IMG/VR virus record: IMGVR_UViG_3300044630_002419
Location: 1 to 40,711 of that record
Direction: 5' to 3' (one strand)
Source of the DNA: a virus
Length of the DNA: 40,711 nt
Both the position numbers and the translations under genes were made by a program. Below are positions 1,453-20,985 of the stretch, in pieces. The number at the start of each line of letters is the position of its first letter. The stretch's first letter is position 1. A model generated the notes under the pieces. It did not search any database, was not told the DNA's origin, and was given only the letters and a program-made list of their open reading frames with translations.

Positions 1453-2388
1453 ATGTACTCCACGGGCTCTGATCTAGAAGCGGTGGACTGGCTGCTGGAC
1501 CAGTCCCATGCCTATCCGCTGCTCACCGCTGAACAGGAGATCTTGCTGAGCCGTCACATCAAGGCCTGGCAGGCAGTGCGGGACAAAATCGAGCTGACCA
1601 GCCGGGACCGGGCGGCCATCAAGCGGGGCGAGCGGGCGCACCGCAGCTTCTACCTGTGCAACATCCGCTTGGTGGTGCATATTGCCCAGCGCTTCAGCCG
1701 GGTCAAGGGCACCCTCGGATTTGAAGATCTGGTGCAGGAAGGCCTATGCGGGCTTGCCACCGCCATTGAGGGCTTTGACGCGGAGCGGGGCTACAAGTTC
1801 TCCACCTATGCCTACTGGTGGATCCGGCAAGCCATTGCCCGCTCCATCAGCAACCATTCCCGTGTGATTCGGATCCCGTCAGGCGGCATCGACACGATCC
1901 GCAAGGCGATGGACTACATCAAAGAGCAGCAACGAATTCATGGCCGCACCCCGCCCCTGCAGCAGGTGGCGACCGAGTGCAAGACCAACGTGGACTACTT
2001 GCGTTCCTATCTGATGCACTACCAGACGCCGATCAGCCTGGATTCCAAGATGCGCGGCGACAAGACCAACGGCATGAGCAGCACCTACCTCGACATGGTG
2101 GCCGATACCACGATCAAGGAAGAGCCCTACACCGAGTCCATCGACAACGTGGACGCGATGCTGCCGGTGCTGCTGGAGAAGTTGACCGACACCCAGCGGC
2201 TGGTTACGGAGATGCGCTATGGCCTGAATGGCCACCACCCGCACAGTTACGGGAAGATCGCCGAAGTGCTTGGGGTGACACGGCAGCGAGCGCAGCAGAT
2301 CATGATGCAGGCGGAGAAGAGCCTGCGCCGCAAGCTGGCGGATCACGCAGCGCCTCAAGGCACTCCAACTCTGCAATGCGCCGCGTAG
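1453..2388 (+). CDS. Sigma-70 family sigma factor, group-2-like
   Basis: The 311-residue product is a complete sigma-70 protein: region 1.2 around 10-45, region 2 at 66-143 including FSTYAYWWIRQAIARSI and NHSRVIRIP, region 3 at about 144-200 and region 4 at about 236-296 with the GVTRQRAQQI recognition helix. The -10-reading segment is close to that of cyanobacterial group 1/2 factors, so it should direct host RNA polymerase to near-consensus promoters. It is the last gene of the early rightward operon, a logical place for a middle/late switch protein. It could have been captured from a host group 2 sigma gene. A truncated or decayed gene is unlikely because all regions are intact. Confidence 0.9.
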   Translation: MYSTGSDLEAVDWLLDQSHAYPLLTAEQEILLSRHIKAWQAVRDKIELTSRDRAAIKRGERAHRSFYLCNIRLVVHIAQRFSRVKGTLGFEDLVQEGLCGLATAIEGFDAERGYKFSTYAYWWIRQAIARSISNHSRVIRIPSGGIDTIRKAMDYIKEQQRIHGRTPPLQQVATECKTNVDYLRSYLMHYQTPISLDSKMRGDKTNGMSSTYLDMVADTTIKEEPYTESIDNVDAMLPVLLEKLTDTQRLVTEMRYGLNGHHPHSYGKIAEVLGVTRQRAQQIMMQAEKSLRRKLADHAAPQGTPTLQCAA

Positions 2389-2551
2389 CGCCGCGAATGA
2401 TCAGATCCTGGTGCAGGTTCAACTGACACAGGCGGATCAGCATGTCTTTGGCCTGCGCTTCGCTGTAGTCCTGCACCGCTCGGCGTTGCCGTTCCAAGCT
2501 GAGCAGGTGCTCAGGACCTGGCGCCGGGATCATCCACTCACCCCAGGCCAT
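2300..2551 (-). CDS. Possible NblA-like small protein
   Basis: An 83-residue frame starts at 2551 and runs antisense into the last 89 bases of the sigma gene. Residues 15-60 (HLLSLERQRRAVQDYSEAQAKD onwards, in two helices) resemble the length, helix-turn-helix spacing and LSxEQ...SxEQAxxxL pattern of NblA, the adaptor that directs phycobilisomes to Clp protease. Phage-encoded NblA is known from cyanophages. The C-terminal CGAGSSPPAS tail lies inside the antisense of sigma and looks less natural. The resemblance is by pattern only; the frame could be spurious. Confidence 0.35.
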   Translation of the reverse strand: MAWGEWMIPAPGPEHLLSLERQRRAVQDYSEAQAKDMLIRLCQLNLHQDLIIRGATRRIAELECLEALRDPPACGAGSSPPAS

Positions 2552-2554
2552 AGC

Positions 2555-2564
2555 TGCAACCTAG
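2555..2564 (+). promoter_or_regulatory. Start-associated element, TGCAACCTAG
   Basis: A plus-strand copy of the GGMAANYTAG element (first base altered) lies 20 bases before the GTG of the 52-aa gene at 2585. It shows that the element follows the strand of the gene it precedes. Confidence 0.4.
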
Positions 2565-2584
2565 AAGGTCTGGACTAATTTTCC

Positions 2585-2743
2585 GTGTCAGAACCCACCA
2601 TGCGTTTGGTTGAGACTGACAAGGGAATGCACTGGGAAGTGTGTGGGTTGGGGTATTGCCGCTACCACCAACAGCAGTGGCAGGCCGAGGTGTTTTACCA
2701 GTACCTGCTGCAGGCCCAAGGCACGGCAGTGAAGGAGGGCTAG
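2585..2743 (+). CDS. Small hypothetical protein, 52 aa
   Basis: A GTG at 2585 (or ATG at 2600) opens a frame ending TAG at 2741-2743. The product (MRLVETDKGMHWEV, then CGLGYCRYHQQQWQ) has two Cys and many aromatic and Gln residues, suggesting a small folded domain. Its stop interlocks with the stop of the convergent gene on the other strand (2740-2742). No family was recognised. A start-associated TGCAACCTAG lies 20 bases upstream. Confidence 0.5.
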   Translation: MSEPTMRLVETDKGMHWEVCGLGYCRYHQQQWQAEVFYQYLLQAQGTAVKEG

Positions 2744-2919
2744 GCCGCTGCGGGTGGGTCGTCCTGCTCACGGCTGAGCCAAAGCCGCACGTAGTTCTCG
2801 TCGTAGCTGATGGTGGTGATGCCATTGAAGACGGCCATCCAAAAGCGCACGCCGGTGTCACGGCGGGTGACTTCCCACAGGCCGGGCTGAATGCGGCGGG
2901 AGATGTTGAGGCCTGTCAT
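2740..2919 (-). CDS. Small hypothetical protein at end of late operon, 59 aa
   Basis: The ATG at 2919 overlaps the endolysin stop (ATGA), so the gene is coupled to the lysis cassette and is the last gene of the leftward late transcript. The product reads as a small beta-rich domain (GLWEVTRRDTGVRFWMAVFN, then TTISYDENYVRLWLSR) with an acidic tail. No family was recognised. A lysis or superinfection role is only a guess from position. Confidence 0.6.
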   Translation of the reverse strand: MTGLNISRRIQPGLWEVTRRDTGVRFWMAVFNGITTISYDENYVRLWLSREQDDPPAAA

Positions 2920-4091
2920 GGTTCAGCGATGATGGCCCAACCCGAGCGGGGGCCTTCGACAAGCCACCTAGGCCCCCAGTTCTTGCGGCTGTAGGCAAGT
3001 CCCGCGCCACGAGGCCCGATGTAGGTACCCAGTGCAACGGCGGCCTCACCCCAGGGGTCGTTGACGATGGCGGCAGTCGGGGTGAAACCAATCACCGTGA
3101 GCCAGTGCCCGCCCCCCTTCGGTGCCGTTGAGGGGCCGTGGTGCAGGAACCCACAGGGGATGGGAACGCCCCGGGCAATCTGCCGCTCCAGATCGGCCCA
3201 GTCGGCATTTTGCACAAACCGTGCCGTTATGCCGTAACTGGCCAGCGCTTTGATCTGGGCATTGGCATCGGTGGTGTCGCCGTACTGCTGCACCCTTTTG
3301 AGGTATTGGTCATCCGCATTGGGTCCGCCAATACTTCCCGGCCGCAGGTAGGCGGTGAGCATCGCGCAGCTGGAGCTGAAGCACATCCGCTGGGCCTGAC
3401 CGCTCAATGCCGAATCCCGCTGCGAGAAGTAGGGCACCTTGAGCGGGTTGCCCTTCGGCTGGCCCTGCTGCAGTGGCACTCCGCGGGTGAACAGCGCTAC
3501 CTCGGCAGCCCGCCGCCGCTCCAATCCCGGCAGCACCGCCTCCCCGGCATGGCACCACTTGGGCAGCTCCTCGCGCACCACCTTGGCCGGATCCTCCCCG
3601 GCGAGCAGCCGCTTACGCAGCGTGCTCTCCTCCAGTGCCCCGAGGCCCACGTTGTAGGCAAAGCTCACCAGCGCAGCGATCTGCTCAGGGCGCCACTTCG
3701 CCGCCATCGGCAGCAGCTGCAGCACGCCAGGCGCAAACAGGTGCTCGACATCATTGGCCAGCAACTCCTCAGCCATGGCCTGGCTCACCACATCGCCCAT
3801 CCGCACCGCTGCGTCCATGTAGCGGGTGGTGCCATACCCAATCGTGGGTACCCCCGTGGCATCGCGGTAGGCCTCCAGCCGGCAGCCTTCCCACTCCTTG
3901 ATCAGTTTCAACGCTGGCCCCAACCAAGCCGGCGGCAAGGATTCCTTGGCCGGCGGATCAGCGCGGTACAGCTCGGCGAACTCCTTGAGCCGCTCAGCCG
4001 GCAGCTGTTCTTCCAGCCAGTTCCATGCCGCGAGCTGGTGACTCAGCCCCTTGTAATGCTTGGCCGCATCGGCCAGCTTGATGATGCCCAC
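2916..4091 (-). CDS. Two-domain endolysin: GH24 lysozyme plus C39-like peptidase
   Basis: A 391-residue protein with a GTG start at 4091. Residues 60-200 form a T4-lysozyme-type GH24 domain with the catalytic triad spacing of T4 lysozyme: Glu68 (WEGCRLEAYRD), Asp77 and Thr83 (VPTIGYGTT). Residues 219-391 resemble the papain-like C39_2 peptidase fold: Cys237 in QRMCFSSSCAML, His329 in GGHWLTVIGF and Asp345 in VNDPWG. The first domain should cut glycan strands of peptidoglycan; the second may cut stem peptides or another protein. The N-terminal 55 residues are helical and of unknown role. No signal peptide is visible, so it should depend on a holin, encoded just upstream. Confidence 0.85.
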   Translation of the reverse strand: MGIIKLADAAKHYKGLSHQLAAWNWLEEQLPAERLKEFAELYRADPPAKESLPPAWLGPALKLIKEWEGCRLEAYRDATGVPTIGYGTTRYMDAAVRMGDVVSQAMAEELLANDVEHLFAPGVLQLLPMAAKWRPEQIAALVSFAYNVGLGALEESTLRKRLLAGEDPAKVVREELPKWCHAGEAVLPGLERRRAAEVALFTRGVPLQQGQPKGNPLKVPYFSQRDSALSGQAQRMCFSSSCAMLTAYLRPGSIGGPNADDQYLKRVQQYGDTTDANAQIKALASYGITARFVQNADWADLERQIARGVPIPCGFLHHGPSTAPKGGGHWLTVIGFTPTAAIVNDPWGEAAVALGTYIGPRGAGLAYSRKNWGPRWLVEGPRSGWAIIAEP

Positions 4092-4094
4092 AAC

Positions 4095-4259
4095 TCAGCG
4101 GCGGCGCTTCTTGCTGGTGCTCTTGAACTGGGCGATGCCAGCCAGAGCGCTCAGCACCAGCTGCACCCAACCGTTGGAACGCACACTGGGCATCAGGGAC
4201 AACAGTTCGCTGCCGGCCAACAGGGCAACGGCAATCCCAGCAAGCTCTTCGGGCGTCAT
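4095..4259 (-). CDS. Putative holin, 54 aa
   Basis: A short protein starting MTPEELAGIAVALLAG. It has two hydrophobic segments, about residues 7-23 and 32-44, and a strongly basic tail (STSKKRRR). Size, membrane segments, charged C-terminus and position directly before the endolysin all fit a holin that forms the inner-membrane lesion. The GTG of the endolysin begins four bases after its stop. Direct sequence homology to a named holin family was not recognised. Confidence 0.65.
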   Translation of the reverse strand: MTPEELAGIAVALLAGSELLSLMPSVRSNGWVQLVLSALAGIAQFKSTSKKRRR

Positions 4260-4278
4260 GACTACCGCTCTGACTATT

Positions 4279-4288
4279 TAGGTTGCCG
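4279..4288 (-). promoter_or_regulatory. Start-associated element before holin gene
   Basis: Minus-strand CGGCAACCTA, 19 bases before the holin ATG and two bases after the stop of the upstream gene; it continues as AATAG. Confidence 0.5.
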
Positions 4289-4289
4289 T

Positions 4290-4532
4290 TTAGGACTTGG
4301 CTTCCAGCGCTGCCAAGCGCTGCTCAATGGACCCGATGCGCGGATACAACTCTTGCCGGTCTTCCTTGATCTCTTGGCGCAACAGGCTCACCTCACCGGC
4401 GATGTGCTCTACCGCTGAAGTCAGCCGCACCACGGCTAGGGATGCCTCGCTATCCCGACGAAAGAGGTTGCCAACGCCGCTGGCGGCAATACCGATCCCA
4501 GCACCAACGGCGGCAGCAAAAACCTCGATCAC
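4290..4532 (-). CDS. Membrane-anchored coiled-coil protein, lysis-associated
   Basis: An 80-residue protein with an N-terminal hydrophobic, Gly/Ala-rich segment (VFAAAVGAGIGIAASGVG, residues 4-21), then an RR pair and a long helix with heptad character (VRLTSAVEHIAGEVSLLRQ to the end). This layout is the reverse of XhlA-type proteins but similar in content. Next to the holin and endolysin it may act as an accessory holin, antiholin or spanin-like partner. No lipobox or named domain was seen. Confidence 0.6.
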   Translation of the reverse strand: MIEVFAAAVGAGIGIAASGVGNLFRRDSEASLAVVRLTSAVEHIAGEVSLLRQEIKEDRQELYPRIGSIEQRLAALEAKS

Positions 4533-4555
4533 TGCAGGGGACGTGGCGCTCTGAC

Positions 4556-4564
4556 TAGGTTGCC
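4556..4564 (-). promoter_or_regulatory. Start-associated element before coiled-coil lysis gene
   Basis: Minus-strand GGCAACCTA followed by GTCAG, 23 bases before the ATG at 4532 and two bases after the preceding stop. Confidence 0.5.
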
Positions 4565-4566
4565 GC

Positions 4567-4866
4567 CTACTGCGGCGGCACCTCTACTTCCGGCTCTGGT
4601 TCCGGCAATGGGGTGAGGTCCGGCTCAGGAGCCACGAACACATCCGCCACAGAGTCGTAGGTGTCACCGATGCCGGCGTACTTGCCCCGGAAGTTGGCGT
4701 TGTAGCTGGTTTGCACCCAGCGGGTGCCAGCGCCGAACAGCTGCTGCAGAAAGGCAATGCCCAGGGCTTCCTGCTCTTGGCCGTTGTCGTCAGTGATGTC
4801 GTCATTGCTCACTACCAGCACGTTGAGCACGACGTTATTGGCGTCAAGTTCTGCGAAGTGTGCCAT
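4567..4866 (-). CDS. Conserved cyanophage-type virion protein
   Basis: A 99-residue protein beginning MAHFAELDANNVVLNVLVV and containing QTSYNANFRGKYAGIGDTYD. This pattern is, to my recollection, widespread in marine cyanophages, where it is annotated as a structural or tail-associated protein. It ends in a Pro/Glu-rich tail. A longer frame exists upstream, but ATG 4866 matches the family start and overlaps the previous stop by one base. Its exact position in the virion is unknown. Confidence 0.7.
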   Translation of the reverse strand: MAHFAELDANNVVLNVLVVSNDDITDDNGQEQEALGIAFLQQLFGAGTRWVQTSYNANFRGKYAGIGDTYDSVADVFVAPEPDLTPLPEPEPEVEVPPQ

Positions 4867-5876
4867 TAGTTTGGTGTCACCGTGAAGCTGCCTGTCGCTG
4901 TGAAAGTGTGGATCTTGTAGTCCAGGCCATCGACGGTGGCGTCGGTAATGGCGCCGCCAGAACACGTGAAATTGCTTGAGGCCAGGTAACGGAGAATGAC
5001 CAAGCCACTGGAGCCGGCGCCGCCTGAGCGATCCGACAAAGAAGAGGTGTTGGCAGCTCCACCACCGCCTGAACCTTTGTTTGCGCCGGGCGCAGCCAAG
5101 CCGGTGCCGGGGGCAGTGGCGCCAGCCCCGCCGACGCCACTGCCGCCTGTTCCAGCAGCGCCGCTAGCTGTGGCGCCACCGCCGCCGCCGCCTGCGACGT
5201 ATGCGCTGGTGCCGCCGCGGAACTCTGCAATGTCATATCCCGCGGCACCGTTTTGGTTTGTTGCATTAGTCGAGCGCCCACCGCCGCCGCCTGCCCTGAG
5301 ATCGTTCGTAGCGGTGCCGCTGCCAGCTGCACCGTTATTACCTTGGCCGGTGACGCCAGTGCCACCCGCAAAGTTTTGAAATGCACTTGGCGAGTACTGG
5401 TAGCTCACACCACCGCCGCCACTGCCGCCATTGCCGCCAGTGCCGTTAACGATATTTGTGCCGGTCGAATGGCCAGCGCCGCCGCCCGTTGCGGTGTAAG
5501 TGAACACACCGCCGGCAATACGGCTCAAGCCGCCAGCAGAAGCGCTGGTCACTGAAGCGGCTCCACCCGCGCCTATGGTGATTGCGTACGTTGCGGCACC
5601 AGAAGCCAGCGGGCGTATCGCTGCCAGCTCTATAAGTGCGCCACCCGCGCCGCCACCACCCGCGCAACGCCGGTAGTTGTTTGCATTTTCCCGGGCATAG
5701 CCACCTGCACCGCCGCCAGCCAGGATCAACGCATCAATTTCGCCATCAAAGTACGGCGCGGTGGGCCACTGCCCATTCCTGACTGCTTTGATGGCGTCAT
5801 CCAGCGTCCACACGCCAGAAGCCACCGTCGTGCTCGGCACATTTTCTACGCCGATGTAGCCGCCGTTGCCGCTCAT
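4866..5876 (-). CDS. Glycine-rich tail fibre / adhesin
   Basis: A 336-residue protein with a short unique N-terminus (MSGNGGYIGVENVPS, then WTLDDAIKAVRNGQW), a core starting DALILAGGGAGGY and many polyglycine runs (GGGGAGG, GGGGG) separated by short variable loops. Such glycine-rich domains occur in phage receptor-binding tips, where the variable loops contact the host. The start overlaps the upstream stop (ATGA). The antisense strand is Pro/Ala-rich and open, which is a side effect of the Gly codons. Position among fibre genes supports the call. Confidence 0.65.
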   Translation of the reverse strand: MSGNGGYIGVENVPSTTVASGVWTLDDAIKAVRNGQWPTAPYFDGEIDALILAGGGAGGYARENANNYRRCAGGGGAGGALIELAAIRPLASGAATYAITIGAGGAASVTSASAGGLSRIAGGVFTYTATGGGAGHSTGTNIVNGTGGNGGSGGGGVSYQYSPSAFQNFAGGTGVTGQGNNGAAGSGTATNDLRAGGGGGRSTNATNQNGAAGYDIAEFRGGTSAYVAGGGGGGATASGAAGTGGSGVGGAGATAPGTGLAAPGANKGSGGGGAANTSSLSDRSGGAGSSGLVILRYLASSNFTCSGGAITDATVDGLDYKIHTFTATGSFTVTPN

Positions 5877-6214
5877 GCTGTCATCTCAAGCGCTGAAACA
5901 GTGATCTCAAGGTAGCCGGCGTTTGTGGCAGTGGCCCGCAGCTTTTCGCCTTGCTTGAGAATCAGCTTGTTAGGAATAGCCTCCAGCGTGGCATCTGCTG
6001 GCACGGCAATGGTGCTGGCAATCCGCGCGATGGCGTTGTTCGCCGCATCAGTCACGGTTAGCGTGATGTCTGTTGCCGCGGTGGCGTTCACGTTGGCCAC
6101 CAAGCAACTCAGCACGATGGCCCGGTCTGTGTTGGCAATGTTGGGGCCCTGGTAGATGTCAGTGATGCCTGTAGTTGTCAGGGCAACGGATGCCCGATTG
6201 AAAGTTTCAGCCAT
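5873..6214 (-). CDS. Small beta-rich virion protein
   Basis: A 113-residue, Thr/Ala-rich protein (MAETFNRASVALTTTGITD, ending LEITVSALEMTA) with alternating hydrophobic residues typical of a beta-sandwich. It is coupled to the glycine-rich protein and lies five bases after the stop of the preceding fibre gene. Such small proteins often decorate fibres or the baseplate in cyanophages; the function here is inferred from context. Confidence 0.55.
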   Translation of the reverse strand: MAETFNRASVALTTTGITDIYQGPNIANTDRAIVLSCLVANVNATAATDITLTVTDAANNAIARIASTIAVPADATLEAIPNKLILKQGEKLRATATNAGYLEITVSALEMTA

Positions 6215-6219
6215 AATGA

Positions 6220-7011
6220 TTAACCGAGAGCAATAGCAAGAGCAAGTGCTGAGCCTTTAGTTGCATAGGTGGCTGCAGCACTGGTGGTGGAAAGGTAGCC
6301 TGACGAGGCTGCTGCCGTCGTCAAGTAAGACGACATCCCGCTAATGGTTTGATATGTCGATGCAGCAGTTGTAACGTCAAGCTTGCCGCTGATGTCAACC
6401 TGTGATACCCAGCTAAGCTGTCCAGCGCTATTGGTACTGAGAAGTTGGCCGTTTGAGCCATTACCCGAAGGCAAGGTAAACGTGAAGTTGGTCGAGACTA
6501 CTGCTGGCGCTTTGATGCCGATGTAGTTACTCTCATCAGCATCGTAAAAGACAGCATCGTTGACAACCTTTGCATTGAGAGCGTCTAAGGTGTCAACGGT
6601 GAGCGTAGGAATATTCACGCCCCCTGATGCATCGACGGTGACCCGTGCAAGCCCACCAGCTGCAAGGGCTAGCGACCCTGCCGATGGTGCATAAACTCCG
6701 GTTGTTGGCGCTGTGCTGCTGGTGGGGATAAAGCTGGCAGCGGTGCTGGTGCCGGTGGTTACAACGGCCTGGCTGCCAAAGTCCGGGCTGATCTTGGTGC
6801 CTGCGATGGCCGCACCAGAGGCCACCTTGGCGTTGGTAATGGCGCCATCGGCAATAGCGCCAATTTCCACAACGCTGGCGGTGCCGTTATCGCGCTTAAG
6901 AAAGGCCTTGCCGTCAAACGTGTTGATTGCTATGACGCCAAGAGCCAAATCAGCGGTGGTCGGCACTTTGCCAGCCACTGATGAGCGGATGTGCTTGATA
7001 GTTTGTGCCAT
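6220..7011 (-). CDS. Tail fibre-like protein
   Basis: A 263-residue protein whose first 40 residues (IKHIRSSVAGKVPTTADL, then GVIAINTFDGKAFLK) match the N-terminal virion-attachment pattern common to many phage fibres. The middle contains repeats such as DGAITNAKVASGAAIAGTKI, a hallmark of fibre shafts, and the C-terminus is Ser/Thr/Ala-rich (SGYLSTTSAAATYATKG). It probably links to the tail tip and exposes a host-binding end. Confidence 0.7.
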   Translation of the reverse strand: MAQTIKHIRSSVAGKVPTTADLALGVIAINTFDGKAFLKRDNGTASVVEIGAIADGAITNAKVASGAAIAGTKISPDFGSQAVVTTGTSTAASFIPTSSTAPTTGVYAPSAGSLALAAGGLARVTVDASGGVNIPTLTVDTLDALNAKVVNDAVFYDADESNYIGIKAPAVVSTNFTFTLPSGNGSNGQLLSTNSAGQLSWVSQVDISGKLDVTTAASTYQTISGMSSYLTTAAASSGYLSTTSAAATYATKGSALALAIALG

Positions 7012-7025
7012 GTGGCCTCCGTAAT

Positions 7026-7037
7026 GCCTATTTAGGC
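7026..7037 (-). promoter_or_regulatory. Variant start-associated element (GCCTAAATAGGC)
   Basis: A 12-base palindrome lies 14-25 bases before the ATG at 7011. Its CCTAAATAG half matches the CCTAAATAG seen downstream of the element before the holin gene, so it looks like a divergent member of the GGMAANYTAG set. Confidence 0.35.
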
Positions 7038-7061
7038 AGAGTGGTTAAGAGTGGGGGCGGA

Positions 7062-7517
7062 TCAGAAGCTGCCGCCATCCACCGTGTCAACGGCGATGGT
7101 GACGTAGCCATTACCGGCATCCTTCGTCCAGCTGAGGCTGCTGTTCAGGCGGATCACACCGTTGGTGCCATCAGTGCCCCAGATGTAACCGGCAGTGCCG
7201 CCACTCACAACCGCCACCTTCTCGTCGCTGCTTCCAGCAGGAATGTTGAGGGCCGTCTTGAAGCTGTTAAAGGTGATCTTCTTTTCCTTCTGCCCAGCGC
7301 TTTCGCTGGCGTCGTGGATCAGGATCAGGTCAGACGCACCATCGACGCTGGCCAGCGTGGTGAGGTCATCAACAGCAGGCACCACCGGCAGCTTGGTGGT
7401 GGCATCGGTAGCAACGTGCAGCGTGCCCCGGTCTGTAGTGACCAGCGGCTCACCCGCCAACATGCCGGTGCTGGGCAGATTGGCCTTGAGGCCGCGCTTG
7501 AGTTGAAGGCGTGCCAT
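7062..7517 (-). CDS. Tail fibre protein with Mtd-like N-terminus
   Basis: A 151-residue protein. Its first 40 residues (LQLKRGLKANLPSTGMLAGE, then TTDRGTLHVATD) follow the pattern found at the N-terminus of phage tropism-determinant and other tail proteins. The rest is beta-rich and ends AVDTVDGGSF; the neighbouring gene ends SPVVDGGTFN, so the two C-termini share a VDGGxF motif. Likely part of a short tail fibre assembly. Confidence 0.65.
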   Translation of the reverse strand: MARLQLKRGLKANLPSTGMLAGEPLVTTDRGTLHVATDATTKLPVVPAVDDLTTLASVDGASDLILIHDASESAGQKEKKITFNSFKTALNIPAGSSDEKVAVVSGGTAGYIWGTDGTNGVIRLNSSLSWTKDAGNGYVTIAVDTVDGGSF

Positions 7518-7542
7518 GAACAGGGGCGCTAGGACGTTGCCC

Positions 7543-7551
7543 TAGGTTTCC
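7543..7551 (-). promoter_or_regulatory. Start-associated element before 151-aa fibre gene
   Basis: Minus-strand GGAAACCTA followed by GGG, 25 bases before the ATG at 7517 and four bases after the preceding stop. Confidence 0.5.
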
Positions 7552-7555
7552 TGCG

Positions 7556-7810
7556 CTAATTGAAGGTGCCGCCGTCTACGACTGGCGACCAGCTTGAGTC
7601 GTAGTTGGCATAGCTGCCTTTGATCAGGATGTTGCCGGGATCGCCGCCCGTAGGCAGCCCACCGGCAACTGACCCGGCAGGGCCTTGCGGGCCTTCGGTG
7701 GCCACCTCCACGGTGAGGGGCGTGGTGGCGGTCCTGATCTCAATGACCTGCTCGGCTACCTCGGTGACGACCACCTGGCCGGAGCTGAGCACCTCAACGC
7801 TGTTGGCCAT
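7556..7810 (-). CDS. Short collagen-like tail protein
   Basis: An 84-residue protein with an N-terminal beta-rich part (MANSVEVLSSGQVVVTEVAE), a short collagen-like GPQGPAGS segment and a C-terminus ending VDGGTFN, shared in style with the next fibre gene. Such proteins form trimeric connectors or fibre stems. The stop of the next gene upstream lies three bases before its start, so the two are probably co-translated. Confidence 0.55.
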   Translation of the reverse strand: MANSVEVLSSGQVVVTEVAEQVIEIRTATTPLTVEVATEGPQGPAGSVAGGLPTGGDPGNILIKGSYANYDSSWSPVVDGGTFN

Positions 7811-7813
7811 GGG

Positions 7814-8164
7814 TTAGCTCGGTGCGGTGTAGCCCTCGCTGGGCCGGACAATGCCTTCTAGGTAATACTCGCGCAGGCCGGTCTGATTGATCAGCATCAC
7901 GTCGTACCGCGCCTCTTCCGGCAGGGTGGCCGTGACGGCATAGGGCAGGGTCAGCTTCACGCTGCCGATGCTGGCATTGACAGTGGTGACCGTGAAATCG
8001 CCGTACTTGGTGGTGCGCTCTTTGTTCCACACCTGAGCCAGCACCGTCCAACCCGAGACGTTGATGCCAGTGCCACCTGAATCCTTGAACTGAACAGCCA
8101 GCTCAAAATCAGCCCGGCGTTGGGGGCGGATGTTGTAGGCAGCGGGTGTGATGGCCATATCCAA
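7814..8164 (-). CDS. Baseplate/fibre-associated protein
   Basis: A 116-residue (or 114, from the second Met at 8158) protein with the pattern RPQRRADFELAVQFKDSGGT, then VSGWTVLAQVWN, found in small phage proteins that begin with a BppU-like beta-sandwich N-terminal domain. It lies between connector-like and fibre genes. Position supports a role at the tail tip; the family link is by eye. Confidence 0.5.
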   Translation of the reverse strand: MDMAITPAAYNIRPQRRADFELAVQFKDSGGTGINVSGWTVLAQVWNKERTTKYGDFTVTTVNASIGSVKLTLPYAVTATLPEEARYDVMLINQTGLREYYLEGIVRPSEGYTAPS

Positions 8165-8175
8165 GCTTTCCCTGC

Positions 8176-8574
8176 TCAGCCCACCACCTTGTCGGGGTTG
8201 GTCTGGATGTCCACTCGCATCTGGGACCTTGGCCCGACACCTTTGGGCACGGTGACGGAGACAGCATTGCTGCCGGGGTAGGCCCAGATCAACCGGCCCG
8301 CCACGTCCTGCATCGCAGCATCCCCGCCCCAGTCCACGAGGTACACCGTCCAGCGGCTGAAGGCTTGCTCTTGGCGGTACTGCCGCACCGGCACTAGCTC
8401 AGGCTCGCGCAGGATCACGCACTCCAGCCCCGTCACGGTGGTGCCTGCCGGCAGGCTTTCCCCCACGGCCCGCACGCTGATCGCAGGCGTGCTCATGCCA
8501 TTGGCCAACAGGTACGAGCCGAGCACATCCACCAGGGTGGTTTCCAGCTCAGTGCGGAGGCTCAGCAGGTTCAT
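8176..8574 (-). CDS. Hypothetical tail completion-like protein
   Basis: A 132-residue protein with an N-terminal amphipathic helix (LLSLRTELETTLVDVLGSYL) followed by beta-rich sequence (CVILREPELVPVRQYRQE, FSRWTVYLVDWGG). The layout resembles minor tail or tail-terminator proteins, but no clear family was seen. Its start lies inside the 3' end of the frameshift extension frame, so translation may be coupled. Confidence 0.45.
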   Translation of the reverse strand: MNLLSLRTELETTLVDVLGSYLLANGMSTPAISVRAVGESLPAGTTVTGLECVILREPELVPVRQYRQEQAFSRWTVYLVDWGGDAAMQDVAGRLIWAYPGSNAVSVTVPKGVGPRSQMRVDIQTNPDKVVG

Positions 8575-11805: not shown

Positions 11806-11810
11806 GGGGA

Positions 11811-12233
11811 TCAGGCGATGGTGAGCACGCCGGTGCTGGCGTCAAAGTCCACGGCAAAGGATTCACCGGCGGCCAGGGTGATGCTGCTGCCGTAATCCCA
11901 GAAGCCGATCAGCTCGTCATTGGTGGCGGTGTCGTTATAGAGCACGGCATAGCGGAAGGGGCCAATGCTGCCGCCGCTGGCCGTCCAAGTGGTGGGATCG
12001 CCTAGCACCAGCTTGTAGGTGCCGCTGGTCTGCGCCGAGCTGGTAATCGACGCGGCGCTGCCGCCAGCGGTGTAGCCGTTGCCAGCGGTGATCTCAGTTA
12101 GGTTCGCCTTGATGGTGTTGGTGGCCACAGGGGCGGTGTTGCAGAGCAGCACCTTGAGGGTGTCACTGCCGAGATTGTGCGTCTTCTCGGCCAGCGCCTC
12201 AACAAACGAGTTGAACTTCTGGAAGGAGGCCAC
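11811..12233 (-). CDS. Conserved phage structural protein
   Basis: A 140-residue protein starting MASFQKFNSFVEALAEKTHN with SGGSIGPFRYAVLYNDTATN near the C-terminus. I recognise this as a pattern that recurs in tailed phages of many hosts, usually annotated as a virion or tail-associated protein. It lies directly after the large tail-tip gene, preceded by a GGCAACCTAG element. Confidence 0.65.
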   Translation of the reverse strand: MASFQKFNSFVEALAEKTHNLGSDTLKVLLCNTAPVATNTIKANLTEITAGNGYTAGGSAASITSSAQTSGTYKLVLGDPTTWTASGGSIGPFRYAVLYNDTATNDELIGFWDYGSSITLAAGESFAVDFDASTGVLTIA

Positions 12234-12252
12234 CGGGCACAGGCGTTGTCGC

Positions 12253-12261
12253 TAGGTTGCC
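12253..12261 (-). promoter_or_regulatory. Start-associated element before 140-aa structural gene
   Basis: Minus-strand GGCAACCTA followed by GCG, 19 bases before the ATG at 12233; it abuts the stop codon of the tail-tip gene. Confidence 0.5.
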
Positions 12262-15200: not shown

Positions 15201-15617
15201 TCCACTTGCAGTTACGGGAATAGGAACCGGGCTGTTCGCTGGATATTCGACATAGCCATTCAGGCATTGCTGTTGGCGGCCACTGGTTTCAGCCGCTGCG
15301 TCGTCGACGCTAGGTGCAGGCGTGACATTTTGAAGGTAAGTCAGCTTGCAGCCCAGCTCTACCTTGGTGATCTTGCGAAAGGGGTCAGCAAAGCTAGAGA
15401 GCACCCTGAGCTTGCGTGGAACCCTTCTTGTTTTTCCGTCTCTTGTGTAGTTAAAAGTGACAACAGAACCAACCGCAGGCGTGAAGATGCCTTTTAGCTC
15501 ACAACTACCGCGAGTTTTTACAAGGCCACTGCCTTGGATGTAATCATCCCCAATGGTTCCACGGATCAAAGGGCCGAGAGAACAGGTGACTGTGGCGCGG
15601 ATGTCGATGGTCGCCAT
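12261..15617 (-). CDS. Large tail tip / hub protein
   Basis: At 1,118 residues this is the longest gene. The N-terminal part (ATVTCSLGPLIRGTIGDDYI, then KLRVLSSFADPFRKI) reads like a baseplate-hub domain, and its order after the tape measure and a distal-tail-like gene is where siphophages encode the tail-associated host-recognition protein. Residues about 800-960 hold six or seven imperfect repeats of a GSFxxTGQxA motif about 20-30 residues apart, followed by a distinct C-terminal domain that may bind the receptor. It overlaps the preceding gene by one base. No lysozyme motif was seen. Confidence 0.75.
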   Translation of the reverse strand: MATIDIRATVTCSLGPLIRGTIGDDYIQGSGLVKTRGSCELKGIFTPAVGSVVTFNYTRDGKTRRVPRKLRVLSSFADPFRKITKVELGCKLTYLQNVTPAPSVDDAAAETSGRQQQCLNGYVEYPANSPVPIPVTASGVMATCLSRLGLTATITPLTNRFNVDTFDLSAGYVNVLGDLLLSEGYFGYLDHNEKLQVCNLAVESGTGPVLTADDIVDIDSIGVGDLPGDAVFVRYEALRLDKSFELAEAEERNWEFEETTGSPQQVEVRYTNAQGQALSQFYSYIPYSTTTTTYGKDMSWDDTVCVIASSRAEGADLSDSVVRRVTKQRTIKAESANSYCAQLLTAGTNPNGQIVAEIERVEEYEYDNTGQLTKQTSSVYEPFFKWAGGLPFEFVYYNSFGSEVVLLDSTPVLVEQVVQEYDTIYAPRPKYIELKPGEVFERAVEGQRVTTTTYRNWALTLGGQQGSANIQTSNAFGFASELTAWLNKAKSVMVMVDSQVRTQRGRGGSAGQVRAPKALRLGQPNGATAESTTQIAYAMGSANSDRFVSFSMPYQSDDTFLSNGTIRKGNAGAKALRFGRIQNRLLVGNRNGVNLQLHPSKLPAKPFDPLYLSDGSLMVQYRANGLNWAFSSEGIVTSVDALFWGVAGGAGTSWVPVAPGISTFPALPAVVDTTPTEVIGTVASIGSTPQTQLDTAFPAAVAGDGVQDLSTEDYWVYDGSSWSNEGPNPGPSASVAAVVPPWNELVPFDGVTRTTAVVVDYTYPLGSVGTEVVTLVTRTRYTVGSVLPAAAGALSVSGQASTGRYVRGVAGNVGSFAVTGQSAGNVRSFGIGANTGSFTITGQAAGLVVQRSPMPADAGALALTGQAATFFKGVDRSLSVGSFTADGFAASLLKTYLVSGAVGSFALTGQSATLGQNLAIVTGTAAPLLGRSGATSYTGWTQLRNSSTDDDAFSVPSWAFSFYLDSSPYSDIFVGSNTYMTFNSPSTVYSNLSASNPPYPKLHLGSADNSMQRLYRRDETLSDGSRVVRIRIEGTSSTSGSPGSPTIVVETSFYEPRPSGEQWIEVRVGEHNRTSGLFMLANETTSYASGTIAADSSWLFVGNALGTSWTLTANRYVA

Positions 15618-16348
15618 TACTTCGCCTGTCCTAGAGAAATAGACACGGTGTAGAGATCAGCGCGAACACCGCCAACGATCTGGGCTTCGGCTGTAGCGCT
15701 GGGAGCGCCAAGGGGGAACCATGTGCCTGCTGCAGGTGTAGAGGAAATGATGGACTCGTACCAGCTTTGGATGGCGGCCCAGCCAGCAGCGTTGGTATCA
15801 CCCTCGATCTGCCGCACCCGAGTAGCGCTCAAAGGCCCTGTGATGTAGGTGGCGCCGCTTGCCGTCAACGCCAAGGAGGGCGTGTCTTGATAGGTTTCCG
15901 CCGGCTTGAGCAATTGCAGAGTGGTGCTGCCGAGGGTGTAGGTGCCGAAGTAGAAGCAGGCCGCCCCGAGCAGCTGATCCTTACGCAGGACGGCTAGGGC
16001 TTCGGCGGCATGAACCAGCGTCACGGACGCCTGGATGTAGGCCCCGATCTGCTCACCGCTGGGTGGCTCAGAGAACCAGCAGCTGATGCCGCTCCAGCTG
16101 ACGCCATTAGCACTGCCCGTGAACGAGACGGTGGTGCCAACGCTGTTACTGGTCAGGGTGTCGGGGTCTTGGATACGGGCTGCTTGCCAGGTGTCATAAA
16201 CACTGAGCAGAGATTGCCACTGAGCTGTGGTCAAAAGGCCACTGATCCGCCAAGTGCGTGCTGTCAGCCCTTGTCGAGCATCACCCTCGTAACCCAACGG
16301 CTGTGCCGTCAGAAGAGAGCAGGTAAAAGCGCCGATAGAGAAAGTCAT
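15617..16348 (-). CDS. Distal tail-like protein
   Basis: A 243-residue beta-rich protein (MTFSIGAFTCSLLTAQPLGY, LLTTAQWQSLLSVYDTWQ). Its order, directly after the tape measure and before the large hub protein, matches the distal tail protein of siphophages. The pattern of two similar halves (TAQWQSL...YDTW and NAAGWAAIQSWYES) hints at an internal duplication. It overlaps the tape measure stop (ATGA). Confidence 0.55.
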   Translation of the reverse strand: MTFSIGAFTCSLLTAQPLGYEGDARQGLTARTWRISGLLTTAQWQSLLSVYDTWQAARIQDPDTLTSNSVGTTVSFTGSANGVSWSGISCWFSEPPSGEQIGAYIQASVTLVHAAEALAVLRKDQLLGAACFYFGTYTLGSTTLQLLKPAETYQDTPSLALTASGATYITGPLSATRVRQIEGDTNAAGWAAIQSWYESIISSTPAAGTWFPLGAPSATAEAQIVGGVRADLYTVSISLGQAK

Positions 16349-18375
16349 AGCCTTGAGTTGACAGTTTCGACAACATCACCGGACGCAGTGCCTCCGGGAA
16401 CCTGCACGACCACATTCCAATCTTTTTCTACAAGGGCCTGCTGCGCTTTTGTATTTTCAAGCAAGGCCTTGCCTAGCTCTTGCTCGGAATTGGCAAAGTT
16501 TTCTGCAAAGCCAGCCAAAGCAAACAGCTTGTCAGGCGTGGAGATGTCAATACCCTCGCGAATGACGCCTCGATCTACTAAAGGCTGCACTGAGGCACGT
16601 GCTCTTGCAATTTGCTCTTGCTGAAGACCCTTGGTCAAGAAATCAAATCCCCCGCGCAAGACGCCTTGCATATTCTTTTGCGCGTCCTTAAGTGCATCTG
16701 CCGCGGTTTGTGCGTTTTTGACCAGGCCGGCGCCCGCCTCGGCATAGGCCAAGACCACCTCAGCATTAGCCTGGTTCTGCTTGATTAGGAGGTCGTCAAC
16801 TGTTTCACTGCTGCGGGTGCCATTCTTGCCATCACCACCAGGCTTGGCCAGTTCACGCTCCAGCGCCAGCTCAGCCTCTTTGGCTTGACGTATCTTGTCT
16901 TCTATTGCCAGTTGACTTTGCAGCACTTGCAGAGCTGTGCCTTCAAGGGTTGCCAGCTCCTTGGCTGCAAAGATCCGACTTTCAATCCCTTCAAGCTGCA
17001 GGTCGGCGGTTTGCTGCTTGAACAACCCATCAAGAACCTTGCCGGCTGACTGATCAACGCCAGCGGCCAGCTTGTTAGTGAGATCACCGGCCAAGGCCGT
17101 AACCTTCTGCTCTTCAACCTGAAGGTTGACGGGCACCTCAATGGGCTTGGCATTGACAGCGCTGCCGATGTCTTTTAGCCCAGCATCTACCTGTGAGCGA
17201 GCCTCGCCGGAGAGGATGCCGCCAAAGCGGGCCGGGGCGGTGATGATCTTGACCAAGCCGCTAGCGGTCAACGCGGCCTGCCGCAAGCGCAGCTCCAGCT
17301 GGACGATGGAATCAATCAGCCCTTGCGGATTTGCCTCTAGCCCTTCATTGATGCTGCCGATGCCCTCAATGATCGGGGTGATGGCCGTGTTCAGGAGCGA
17401 TTCAAACGCCAGCGCCAGGGCTTCCACCACCCGTGGGTTCTTCTCCAGCAGCTCCGCAAAGCGCTGGGCCTCTTTGGTGAGCGGGCTGAAAAATTGCGTG
17501 ATGCTTTCTAGGGAGGGGAACAGACGATCAAAGGCCTGGTTGATCACGTCAAAGGCCGCCGACAGGGCCGGTGTGATGGATTGGGCAAAGCCCAGGAACA
17601 CCTGCTGCACGTTGTCGCCGATGTTGGCGAACTTGACGCTGACCGACTGACCCGCACCTTCCAAGGCGGCCATGCTGCCGGTGGCCAGCACGATGGCCTG
17701 GTTCACGTCGTTGATGCTGATCTTGCCCTTGCTCATCGCATCCTGCAGGGCTTGACCTGACAGGCCGGTGACCTTGGCCAGCTGGCTGTTGAGGTCGATC
17801 CCTGCCTCAAGGAACTGCAGGTTTTCCTCCCCCTGCAGCCGGCCCTTGGCAAACACTTGGGCGTAGATCAGACCTACACGGTCCAGGCTCTGGCCGGACT
17901 GGGCCGCCAAGGCGCCAATGCGGTTGATAGTGCCACCGAGGTTCTCGGCCTCCACGCCCACGGCAAGGAAACGCTGAGCGGCGCCAAGCAGCTCGTCGTT
18001 CTTGAACGGGGTGGCCTTGGACAGGGTGAAGAGTTCCTGCCGCAAGGCGGCGGCAGCCGAGGCAGATCCAGTGAGGCCGGTAAAGGCAGCGGTCAGCTTC
18101 TGGGCATCACCCGCCGCTTGCACCACCGCAAAGCCAATGGCCCCCACAGCCACGGCCACACCAGCAGCCGCCAGCGCACCAGAGGCCAGTCCACCCTTGA
18201 GCGCCCCTAGCTCAGCACCAACATCACCAAACAGGCCACCACCTTTGACCTGCAGGCTGCGGTTGATCTGGGTGCCGGTCTGCTCTGCCAGCCGCTTGGA
18301 TTGATCGAGCCCTGCCTTGTACTGCCGATCATCAACGGCAAGAGTGAGTACCGCTTGACCTAGCGCCTCCGCCAC
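16345..18375 (-). CDS. Tail tape measure protein
   Basis: A 676-residue, mostly helical protein. Residues about 90-230 match the tape-measure N-terminal domain: LRQELFTLSKATPFKNDELL, then QRFLAVGVEAENLGGTINRI and QVFAKGRLQGEENLQFLEAG. An Ala/Gly/Val-rich hydrophobic segment lies at about 52-72, and the C-terminal half has long coiled coils. Tape measures set tail length at roughly 0.15 nm per residue, suggesting a tail near 100 nm. It is divergently arranged with the inverted gene pair starting at 18423. Confidence 0.85.
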   Translation of the reverse strand: MAEALGQAVLTLAVDDRQYKAGLDQSKRLAEQTGTQINRSLQVKGGGLFGDVGAELGALKGGLASGALAAAGVAVAVGAIGFAVVQAAGDAQKLTAAFTGLTGSASAAAALRQELFTLSKATPFKNDELLGAAQRFLAVGVEAENLGGTINRIGALAAQSGQSLDRVGLIYAQVFAKGRLQGEENLQFLEAGIDLNSQLAKVTGLSGQALQDAMSKGKISINDVNQAIVLATGSMAALEGAGQSVSVKFANIGDNVQQVFLGFAQSITPALSAAFDVINQAFDRLFPSLESITQFFSPLTKEAQRFAELLEKNPRVVEALALAFESLLNTAITPIIEGIGSINEGLEANPQGLIDSIVQLELRLRQAALTASGLVKIITAPARFGGILSGEARSQVDAGLKDIGSAVNAKPIEVPVNLQVEEQKVTALAGDLTNKLAAGVDQSAGKVLDGLFKQQTADLQLEGIESRIFAAKELATLEGTALQVLQSQLAIEDKIRQAKEAELALERELAKPGGDGKNGTRSSETVDDLLIKQNQANAEVVLAYAEAGAGLVKNAQTAADALKDAQKNMQGVLRGGFDFLTKGLQQEQIARARASVQPLVDRGVIREGIDISTPDKLFALAGFAENFANSEQELGKALLENTKAQQALVEKDWNVVVQVPGGTASGDVVETVNSRL

Positions 18376-18422
18376 TCCTGCAACCCATGTCGTCCACTAA
18401 GTTGCCGGTGGGAAACTAGGGA
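18376..18422. promoter_or_regulatory. Divergent intergenic region with two back-to-back start-associated elements
   Basis: On the minus strand GGCAACTTAG (18397-18406) lies 21 bases before the tape measure ATG; on the plus strand GGAAACTAGGG (18411-18421) lies directly before the ATG at 18423. The two copies point away from each other within 25 bases, the arrangement expected of directional start or promoter elements. Confidence 0.5.
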
Positions 18423-18818
18423 ATGACAAGCGCCCTTGCTGCCCTCGCCAACGCCACCGCAGTCTTCAGCCTGCCGACCGTTGGCACCTACACCGATCCC
18501 GTGACAGGCAACGTGGTGCCTGCCAGCGAGACGGTCACCGTCAACCTGTACCTGCGCCAAGGCACCAACCGCAGCAGCGATCTGCCGGGTGTGGATGCGG
18601 AGGTGGAGGTGTTTGAGGGGTACGCGATCAACCCGCAGGCCTTGGACGCCCGCATTAAGCCAGGGGTGACCGGCACCTTGAACTTTGCCGGCCAGGCCAG
18701 CGTGCCCTTTGAAGTGCTCCAGGGGCGTTACCCCTACGGCAGCACCGGCCTGCTCGGCAGCACCATCCAGTCCGTCCTCGGCGACAAGATCCGCTTGGCC
18801 CGCTACACCCAGCTCTGA
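18423..18818 (+). CDS. Hypothetical tail/connector protein in inverted gene pair
   Basis: A 131-residue protein with a beta-rich core (NVVPASETVTVNLYLRQGTN, VPFEVLQGRYPYGSTGLLG) of the kind seen in head-tail or tail completion proteins. It lies on the strand opposite to all other structural genes here. The stop overlaps the next start (TGATG). The start is supported by AGGGA just before the ATG, although the spacing is short. Confidence 0.6.
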   Translation: MTSALAALANATAVFSLPTVGTYTDPVTGNVVPASETVTVNLYLRQGTNRSSDLPGVDAEVEVFEGYAINPQALDARIKPGVTGTLNFAGQASVPFEVLQGRYPYGSTGLLGSTIQSVLGDKIRLARYTQL

Positions 18819-19246
18819 TGGCCGTCCAGGTCCGCTCCACCTTCAAGCTCACCGGCTGGAATGCCAACCAACTCAAGCTGCGGGTGCCGGTGATCCTGAC
18901 CGGCTACGGCAAGGTCATCGATCAGCAGCTCAAAGAAGAGATCCAGCTGGTGCAGTTCCCCTGGCCGCGCAAGACGTACCGCAAGAACGGGACCATTGAA
19001 ACCTCGCCACGGGACATCGTGGACACCGGCCGGTTCCTGCGCTCTCAGCGGCGGGATCGCCCCAGTGCCACTGAGCTGCGCTTCACTTGGGACACGCCCT
19101 ACTCAGCGTTGATCCTCACGGGCTACACCACCTCACGGGGCACGGTGGTACCGGGCCGCAACTGGATCAAGCCCGCGTTGGACAACCAACCGATGGAGCG
19201 CTTCTTTGCAGCGGAGTGGGCCAAGCTGTCAGGCAACAACCTCTAG
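18818..19246 (+). CDS. Tail completion / HK97 gp10-like protein
   Basis: A 142-residue protein with the helix-strand pattern and motifs of small tail completion or neck proteins: FPWPRKTYRKNG, DTGRFLRSQRRDR, FTWDTPYSALILTGYTT and PGRNWIKPALDN. These resemble the DTGxLxxS and RPFLxPAL features of the HK97 gp10 family, which joins tails to heads. It is coupled to the upstream gene and ends just before a terminator hairpin. Confidence 0.6.
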   Translation: MAVQVRSTFKLTGWNANQLKLRVPVILTGYGKVIDQQLKEEIQLVQFPWPRKTYRKNGTIETSPRDIVDTGRFLRSQRRDRPSATELRFTWDTPYSALILTGYTTSRGTVVPGRNWIKPALDNQPMERFFAAEWAKLSGNNL

Positions 19247-19251
19247 GCATG

Positions 19252-19280
19252 AAAAAGCGGCGGGTCCGCAAACCCACCGC
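19252..19280 (-). terminator. Intrinsic terminator between convergent tail genes
   Basis: Bases 19257-19265 and 19272-19280 pair into a nine-base stem with one mismatch and a six-base loop. On the minus strand the stem is followed by five T (19256-19252). It lies just past the 3' ends of both convergent genes and would mainly stop leftward transcription after the tail tube gene. Confidence 0.65.
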
Positions 19281-19306
19281 CTTGAGCCTCTCCGCTCTAG
19301 TTAGCC

Positions 19307-19786
19307 TCAGGCATTCGTCTCAGCAGTCCAGGCATAGGCGCCGTAACCCGTCAGGGTGAAGCTCACCTGGCTGACGTTGCCGGCCTGGATGTCCTCTGAG
19401 AAGTCGGTCACGAAGGCCACGCCGGCGTGCTTCTCGGGGTTGCCGGTGGCACTCATCTCAGGAGACTCGCGGTACCACTCCACGGTCACGCCGCTGGCGG
19501 CATCCAGAGATGCTTGTTTCAAAACAAGGTACCCGGGGTCTACAAGCGAAAGATTCATCTTGGCCGGAATGCGGTAGCTCTGCCCCGTCACCAGGCTGGC
19601 CTTGAAACCCTGGGTGGAGCCGTAGTCGAGCACGTCCGTGGTGTCAGACGAGCCCTGGATGCCGGCGTTGGTGAGGCTGAGAACCTCGGTCATGCCGGTG
19701 CTGGTTGTCGGCACGGTGGAGGCGGTGGTGCCAGCCTTCACGTAGAAGCGATAGCCCAGCGCCGCAAAGAAGGCACCTGTAGCCAT
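19307..19786 (-). CDS. Major tail tube protein
   Basis: A 159-residue protein with the order and features of siphophage tail tube subunits: MATGAFFAALGYRFYVKAGT at the start, GSSDTTDVLDYGSTQGFKAS in the middle and VSFTLTGYGAYAWTAETNA at the end, a typical C-terminal beta strand. It lies between the connector region and the tape measure, where tail tube genes are found, and is followed by a terminator, which could allow high separate expression. Confidence 0.7.
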   Translation of the reverse strand: MATGAFFAALGYRFYVKAGTTASTVPTTSTGMTEVLSLTNAGIQGSSDTTDVLDYGSTQGFKASLVTGQSYRIPAKMNLSLVDPGYLVLKQASLDAASGVTVEWYRESPEMSATGNPEKHAGVAFVTDFSEDIQAGNVSQVSFTLTGYGAYAWTAETNA

Positions 19787-19810
19787 GGTCAGTTCCTTTG
19801 GCGTGTGCTT

Positions 19811-19819
19811 TAAGTTGCC
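19811..19819 (-). promoter_or_regulatory. Start-associated element before tail tube gene
   Basis: Minus-strand GGCAACTTA followed by AAGC, 24 bases before the ATG at 19786 and two bases after the stop of the sigma-like gene. Confidence 0.5.
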
Positions 19820-19821
19820 GT

Positions 19822-20400
19822 TTAGGCCGCCAGCCGCTCCTCTTCAGCCTCCAGCACTTCCCACGGGGTCGCATACGGCGACACGTGCAGATCAAAGCCT
19901 TTGACATCGTGCGCCACACCGGATGTGGCCACCAGCGCATCCTTCAGGTCCGTCTTGCTGCAGCCCAGCTCTTGGCATACCGCTGCAGTGCTCCAGCCCA
20001 GATCCAAGAGCTTGCGGGCCTGATTGCCCAGCAACCGCACCTGATGCGGGGCCTTGATGCTCCAGTTGTTGCTGCGCAGGTAGTGCAGCACCTCCCCTTG
20101 GGCATACGGCCAGAAGATGGTGCTTAGCTTCCCCCGCTCGGGATCCCAGGCCCTGCAGGCCCGCAGGAAGCCGATGTCCACGCAGGAATCAATATCCTCC
20201 ACGGCCATGCAGTGCCGGTACTTACTGGCCAGCTTGTTGCAGAAGAACTTGATCAGGCCGATGTTGTCCACATACATCTGGCCAAAGCGCCGCTGCTCTT
20301 CACGGCTGAGCGGTTGGGCCAAACGATCCCCACTGCGCTTCTTGGGTTCAGGGCCTGTCGCTACCCCGAACAGCTCAAGTTGATCAGTGAGTAGTGCCAT
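19822..20400 (-). CDS. Small sigma-70-like factor in the structural operon
   Basis: The likely start is ATG 20400, giving 192 residues; a longer frame runs back into the upstream gene. Residues about 41-122 resemble sigma region 2: RRFGQMYVDNIGLIKFFCNK, VEDIDSCVDIGFLRACRAWD, then STIFWPYAQGEVLHYLR and SIKAPHQVR at the -10-contacting position. Residues 134-156 form a helix-turn-helix (GWSTAAVCQELGCSKTDL), but canonical regions 3 and 4 are missing. Size and domain content are like T4 gp55, the late sigma factor. It may bring host RNA polymerase to late phage start elements; this is an inference. Confidence 0.75.
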   Translation of the reverse strand: MALLTDQLELFGVATGPEPKKRSGDRLAQPLSREEQRRFGQMYVDNIGLIKFFCNKLASKYRHCMAVEDIDSCVDIGFLRACRAWDPERGKLSTIFWPYAQGEVLHYLRSNNWSIKAPHQVRLLGNQARKLLDLGWSTAAVCQELGCSKTDLKDALVATSGVAHDVKGFDLHVSPYATPWEVLEAEEERLAA

Positions 20401-20966: not shown

Positions 20967-20985
20967 GGCAAGGCACTCTTGCCCT

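Follow-up and report, generated by a model that had tools for sequence, protein, structure and literature searches.

The window analysed here, a 40.7 kb virus contig (IMG/VR record IMGVR_UViG_3300044630_002419, positions 1 to 40,711), encodes two sigma factors, sigma-1 and sigma-2, and carries repeated copies of a short element, GGMAANYTAG, ahead of many of its late genes. Sigma-2 is a truncated SigF-type (group 3) sigma that consists of the sigma2 and sigma3 domains and lacks region 4. Judging from sequence comparisons, it very probably serves as a late factor that reads the element, with the host core polymerase, as an extended -10-only promoter; promoters of this type are what a factor having sigma2 and sigma3 but lacking sigma4 should recognise.

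Sigma-2, a SigF-Type Factor without Region 4

Sigma-2 is a 192-amino-acid (aa) protein encoded on the minus strand (19822–20400, from an ATG at 20400); a plus-strand reading of the same interval is ruled out by an internal stop. The preliminary description of this DNA placed it, without giving a strand, between connector and tail tube genes, and its neighbours are indeed the head-tail adaptor Ad1 (20409–20966) and a tail-tube-like gene (19307–19786). The same description proposed a region 2 plus a helix-turn-helix (HTH), and both are present, although the HTH turns out to be region 3 and not region 4. We assign it in this way, and regard the protein as sigma2-sigma3, because the profile, hhalign, NCBIfam and structure comparisons all agree without region 4. 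For instance, a profile of 18 sigma-2 sequences aligns with SigB, RpoH and FliA across regions 2 and 3, and the HTH aligns to SigB, FliA and SigF across region 3.1 and corresponds to helices 119–158 in the predicted structure. The single sequence scores 22 bits against the Pfam model of region 2, just below the 24-bit cut-off. Structure prediction, which had been suggested as a check, returned a sigma fold: the AlphaFold model (predicted local distance difference test score, pLDDT, 77; predicted template modelling score, pTM, 0.66) matches the sigma2 domain with a Z score of 10.3 (2.0 Å over 77 residues), and FliA and SigB over sigma2 plus sigma3. As for region 4, there is no Pfam match to it in sigma-2, the hhalign alignment with the sigma-1 family covers sigma-1 residues 45–191 and ends before region 4 (240–292), and the model has only one C-terminal helix.

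The protein, whose conserved C-terminus reads TPWEVLEAEEE, ends where region 4 of cellular SigF begins. Its top NCBIfam match is SigF (positions 34–120 of 258), and against the NF005644/PRK07408 SigF subfamily it scores 35.4 bits, under the curated cut-off of 261 bits, whereas its cellular relatives score 366–380. The group 3 sigmas of two cyanosiphoviruses, P-SS2 and S-CRES1, also match SigF best, and in all three proteins the match ends well short of the model's C-terminal third. Relatives of sigma-2 at about 60–100% identity are common in IMG/VR contigs, with a divergent one (48%) in contig L142. A genome scan found no close cellular or prophage copy, only relatives at about 27–44%; six of the seven examined are full-length cyanobacterial SigF-type genes and the other is a 69-aa fragment. 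The cellular cyanobacterial SigF proteins in that scan are about 260 aa long and extend into region 4 past the end of the phage protein. The pattern of the extracytoplasmic function (group 4) sigmas, which have sigma2 and sigma4 without sigma3, is not that of sigma-2, which has sigma3 and no sigma4.

The Element and Its Likeness to an Extended -10 Promoter

The elements pointed out in the preliminary description are real. The exact GGMAANYTAG occurs ten times in the window, always on the minus strand, in the structural region and about 16–25 nucleotides (nt) ahead of start codons, against a shuffled-sequence expectation of 0.69 (mean; maximum 4). With a weight matrix whose training set excluded the window and its close relatives, we found 17 minus-strand sites of at least 13 bits, the threshold used, between 2584 and 31085, two of which (14745 and 15899) fall within genes, and no such site on the plus strand of the window, where the best score is 8.4. 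The rightmost element lies at the end of rusA, and the rep, exonuclease and RusA-like genes are, like the entire plus strand, without elements.

The anatomy of the element was read from 70 dereplicated copies. A C precedes the GG core, a second conserved patch (C-N-A-A-M-G) lies 12 to 17 nt from the first base of the core, and the sequence is A-rich at +14 to +16; 14 nt from the first G, 44 of the 70 copies have an A. Upstream of the element these copies have no -35-like block, just isolated A/T-rich columns. The ATG is most often found 18 nt after the TAG, and an open reading frame (ORF) beginning with ATG lies 14–26 nt downstream in 38 of the 70, compared with 5.6% at random places. Most of the genes preceded by an element have no Shine-Dalgarno match of at least 3 nt.

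A skeleton, GG-N-A-NN-Y-T, is common to all three lineages (the window clade, P-SS2 and S-CRES1), and it agrees with the extended -10 "J-Box" of the cellular sigma SigJ. In Nostoc, the J-Box reads GGGaAtacT and is accompanied by a weak -35; its Gs are proposed contacts of domain 3, its A and T are proposed to be the flipped -10 bases, and it is reported to be widely distributed in cyanobacteria (PMC6495340). When the J-Box frame is placed on the phage element, the start site coincides with the purine-rich position that lies 14 nt beyond the first G, and the predicted leader is about 14 nt long at the commonest spacing. In P-SS2, 23 of 25 sites have a purine at the predicted start position. The earlier remark that the elements do not resemble sigma-70 promoters is borne out.

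Along the minus strand, the exact copies begin with GGAAACCTAG at 31076–31085 (also found with the matrix), which overlaps the rusA stop codon and is the first of the late region. The same sequence recurs at 30394–30403, 18 nt before the ATG of ORF 29626–30375 upstream of terL; at 28162–28171, ahead of the portal gene (26680–28146); and at 7542–7551, 24 nt before the ATG of ORF 7062–7517. GGAAAGCTAG is found at 26680–26689, 18 nt before the ATG of ORF 26041–26661 and overlapping the stop codon of the portal gene, and at 26019–26028, ahead of ORF 24742–25995. The tape measure gene (16345–18375) is preceded by GGCAACTTAG at 18397–18406, ORFs 11811–12233 and 4290–4532 by GGCAACCTAG at 12252–12261 and 4555–4564, and ORF 2300–2551 by GGAAAATTAG at 2575–2584, 23 nt before its ATG. 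The matrix adds minus-strand variants: GGCAAACTAA at 24436–24445 (13.3 bits), ahead of the scaffold gene (23713–24408); GGCAACCTAC at 22421–22430 (15.7 bits), ahead of ORF 22141–22398; GGCAACTTAA at 20985–20994 (17.7 bits), ahead of Ad1, the gene immediately upstream of sigma-2, and again at 19810–19819 (21.6 bits), ahead of the tail-tube-like gene; and GGCAACCTAA at 4278–4287 (14.9 bits). The element-like TGCGAAGTTAG found directly before sigma-2 in relatives was not counted, because the upstream gene ends there (VLRS stop).

Co-occurrence of the Element and Sigma-2 in Phages

The independent cases for the link between element and sigma are P-SS2 and S-CRES1, whose group 3 sigmas are about 28–32% identical to sigma-2. 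A de novo motif search on upstream regions, made with no input from the window and scored by likelihood against shuffles, returned GGaAnncTan in P-SS2 (score 87) and GGnAncCTa in S-CRES1 (score 81), with shuffles at 26–32; it found no clear motif in KBS-S-2A (30 versus 26–28 for shuffles) or S-CBS1 (32 versus 20–28). Furthermore, GGNANNYTA lies 14–30 nt before 15 annotated starts in P-SS2 and 20 in S-CRES1, where 0.2 and 0.6 would be expected, and it always lies on the coding strand, never on the other one.

When the fragments G020, G027 and G028 are left out, at least four elements are present in 18 of 21 records with sigma-2 and in none of 15 without it. Both sigmas occur in most long sigma-2 contigs, as in the window. 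Three contigs of 37–47 kb (G029, G030 and G032) encode sigma-2 and contain neither a sigma-1 relative nor a Pfam region 2 match, and they retain elements about 18–25 nt before virion genes. Phages with sigma-1 only (KBS-S-2A, S-CBS1 and most of G012–G017 and G022–G026) have zero, one or two elements. Because the elements are present in sigma-2 phages without sigma-1 and, apart from the one or two copies just mentioned, absent from sigma-1-only phages, they go with sigma-2 and not with sigma-1. The preliminary description supposed that one of the two phage sigmas reads the elements, and in their co-occurrence, conservation in distant lineages and late-gene position they indeed behave as sigma-2 promoters.

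Several observations weigh against this assignment. The IMG/VR contigs belong to one clade and the records are not independent, and a Fisher p of 2.9e-7 overstates the case; because the records with sigma-2 are interrelated, P-SS2, S-CRES1 and the contigs with sigma-2 only matter more than the tally. One contig, G018, has three elements and no detected sigma-2, and the three fragments left out of the tally carry two to three elements and sigma-1, with no clear sigma-2 on the piece. The absence of sigma-1 from G029, G030 and G032 was read from contigs of unestablished completeness. In P-SS2 and S-CRES1, the C-termini of the sigmas are longer, and region 4 was checked there by Pfam and NCBIfam only. 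Lastly, the fixed spacing between element and start codon would fit an element acting in the mRNA too.

Such an element, acting as a translation start signal or a processing site instead of a promoter, would account for the sharpness of the spacing and for the scarcity of Shine-Dalgarno sequences. Nevertheless, from phage to phage the element goes together with a sigma gene, it matches the extended -10 of a related cellular sigma, and a purine peak follows it where transcription is expected to begin; if that start is used, the core would not be part of the transcript. We consider an action in the mRNA improbable. With both sigmas present in the window, as in most long sigma-2 contigs, sigma-1 could in principle be the reader and sigma-2 have some other task. 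This is quite improbable in our view, given how few elements the sigma-1-only phages hold, the lack of a clear de novo motif in two of them, and the three long contigs that have sigma-2 and elements without sigma-1; besides, group 2 sigmas usually recognise TATAAT-type promoters. It could also be that the reader is a host group 3 sigma, either SigF or SigJ, which sigma-2 only modulates, as the likeness to the widely distributed J-Box might suggest (PMC6495340). However, phages that lack sigma-2 make no use of the element, and group 3 sigmas are reported to be uncommon in Prochlorococcus (PMC2784084), which makes a host reader highly improbable.

Elements also occur as back-to-back pairs, one on each strand and separated by a few bases, in G030 (2433/2435 and 40125/40127), G029 (26556/26558) and G006 (25302/25288), and some of their outward partners have no clear gene.

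Proposed Mechanism

We propose that sigma-2, a cyanobacterial SigF/SigJ-like group 3 sigma cut down to sigma2 and sigma3, is the late factor of this phage and, together with the host core polymerase, reads one contiguous extended -10 promoter. Domain 3 would recognise the GG (near -14/-13), and domain 2 would capture the invariant A (near -11) and T (near -7). The predicted start is the purine peak some 7 nt past the invariant T, which would give the short leaders predicted above, and such promoters would precede many virion genes. Early genes, sigma-1 included, would be transcribed from sigma-70-type promoters, and the first sigma-2 transcripts may come from read-through of the replication genes on the same strand, started at promoters of that type. 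The elements in the late operon, one of which lies before the gene adjoining sigma-2, would then amplify sigma-2 production. A strict dependency of sigma-2 on sigma-1 does not seem to be a general requirement in the clade, because the three 37–47 kb contigs carry sigma-2 and elements with no detectable sigma-1, and the term "cascade" should be used with care.

There may be an even chance that this reflects a general, unrecognised late-expression system of cyanosiphoviruses, in which a phage-captured cyanobacterial group 3 sigma without region 4 works with the host core alone on extended -10-only sequences and provides many virion genes with promoters of their own and very short, mostly Shine-Dalgarno-free leaders.

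Relation to Known Systems

The preliminary description called sigma-2 gp55-like. T4 gp55, a late sigma of 185 aa with no region 4 of its own that depends on the sliding clamp and the co-activator gp33, is similar in length, in its late role (predicted for sigma-2) and in the missing region, but homology was not borne out: there is no detectable sequence similarity (hhalign probability 0.3%), and the two belong to different families (PHROG_234 for gp55, PHROG_351/36098 for sigma-2). Gp55 was not among the 50 structural matches listed for sigma-2, which counts as evidence neither way. The SPO1 sigmas gp28 and gp34 are of different families. They are likewise phage-encoded and serve middle and late genes (PMC9429907), while a dependency of sigma-2 on sigma-1 in the window is hypothetical. 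A tested precedent is phiEco32 gp36, a phage sigma that shows no homology to region 4 and reads a promoter made of a single element, with a start 6–8 bp downstream; it differs from sigma-2 in its element (tAATGTAtA) and its enterobacterial host, and no second sigma is described (PMC8948821). SigJ with its J-Box shares with the phage system a group 3 sigma and an extended -10 with conserved Gs, a near-invariant A and T and a weak -35 (PMC6495340). In contrast to sigma-2, SigJ is cellular, and the cellular SigF-type relatives that we examined are full length with region 4; the phage element also has its own -10 and initiator details.

That one cyanosiphovirus can have two sigmas was already known from P-SS2, which was reported in 2009 to have a group 2 (ORF113) and a group 3 (ORF003) factor (PMC2784084), and the S-CRES1 record is likewise annotated with two. 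As in the window, the group-2-like gene of P-SS2 lies among replication genes by dCTP deaminase and the group-3-like gene near late genes, and the same GG-N-A-NN-Y-T element precedes late genes. Unlike in the window, the P-SS2 genome is 107 kb long, and its group 3 sigma, 28% identical to sigma-2, adjoins terL. The P-SS2 factor was described only as recognising the sequences of a particular regulon, and the search for promoters in that work was for sigma-70 promoters, with none proposed for group 3 (PMC2784084). In the literature that we searched, the promoter of a P-SS2-type group 3 factor is not described. What is new is the element, its link to a region-4-less group 3 sigma, and its conservation across three lineages.

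In the literature found, neither a promoter nor a factor is described for the late transcription of cyanosiphoviruses, and the element and sigma-2 offer a testable pair, both in the cultured P-SS2 and S-CRES1 and in reconstituted transcription. If the proposal is true, sigma-2 would be a natural minimal sigma that bears on how much initiation needs region 4, and the pair could provide a simple orthogonal promoter-sigma system for laboratory cyanobacteria.

Sigma-1 and the Early Genes

The presence of two different sigma genes, as first described, is supported for sigma-2 by profile and structure and for sigma-1 by Pfam, PHROG and NCBIfam. Sigma-1 (1453–2388, plus strand) is a full-length, group-2-type (cyanobacterial RpoD-like) factor of 311 aa. 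It matches Sigma70_r2 (3.8e-18) and Sigma70_r4 (5.2e-9, residues 240–292), with weak matches to regions 1.2 and 3, the latter under its own Pfam cut-off, and it belongs to the sigma family PHROG_351 (6.7e-60). Its top NCBIfam family is TIGR02997 Sig70-cyanoRpoD (1.2e-59), at 202 bits and thus below the curated cut-off of 384.5. With regions 2, 3 and 4 and cyanobacterial RpoD as its nearest family, it is a cyanobacterial group 2 sigma, and it is complete, as the preliminary description had it. The closest named phage relatives are the group 2 sigmas of S-CBS1, KBS-S-2A and S-CBS3 (33–38%). S-LBS1, S-CBS1 and S-CBS3 are reported to carry rpoD-type sigma genes (PMC6157547), and database records include cyanosiphoviruses with a single group-2-type sigma.

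Sigma-1 closes the early operon, which runs rightward through Erf, dCTP deaminase and sigma-1, as was also proposed, except that a small conserved ORF at about 2588–2743 comes after it. This ORF and ORF 2300–2551, which are both conserved in relatives, lie on opposite strands, and element-like sites point in both directions there. In L143, a plus-strand element after sigma-1 was treated as chance; it spans the stop of a small gene (KPAN stop) before a hairpin-plus-T-run. Directly 5′ of sigma-1, at 1393–1420, there is an inverted repeat, GCCTAG-N16-CTAGG(C), with similar forms in L060, L145 and L143, which could be an operator or attenuator. In L061, L062 and L063, two sigma genes of group-2-like type stand in tandem, and the closer gene's match runs across an in-frame TGA.

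A candidate early promoter of the sigma-70 type, TTGACA-18-TATCCT, lies ahead of the Erf gene (39328–39357, plus strand), and a similar sequence is found at the same place in L145. These observations suggest that a host-type sigma may drive the early genes, with the caveat that counts of sigma-70 consensus promoters and intrinsic terminators in the window are at or below shuffle level. At 39328–39365, a palindromic GTACGTACACGTA lies between the -35 and the -10 of the Erf promoter candidate and is present in L145 too; it is a candidate repressor operator of a temperate phage.

Genome Layout and Lifestyle

The rightward early genes of the window are those for an integrase (PHROG_95), the Erf annealing protein, dCTP deaminase and sigma-1. 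Leftward genes begin with a block of replication initiation-like, exonuclease-like and RusA-like genes, followed by the late genes in the order terL, portal, scaffold, capsid, adaptor, sigma-2, tail tube, tape measure and tail/fibre genes. Because the relative G002 (L145) has the order Int - 38570 - Erf - 40025 - "29" - sigma-1 without a break, the ends of the window probably join and the genome is probably near complete. A megablast of positions 1–25000 found no close relative among deposited phages. The phage is probably a temperate cyanosiphovirus; the N-terminal part of its integrase (37013–38500) resembles a DNA invertase (PHROG_95 and PHROG_125), which suggests a putative serine recombinase and a temperate lifestyle.

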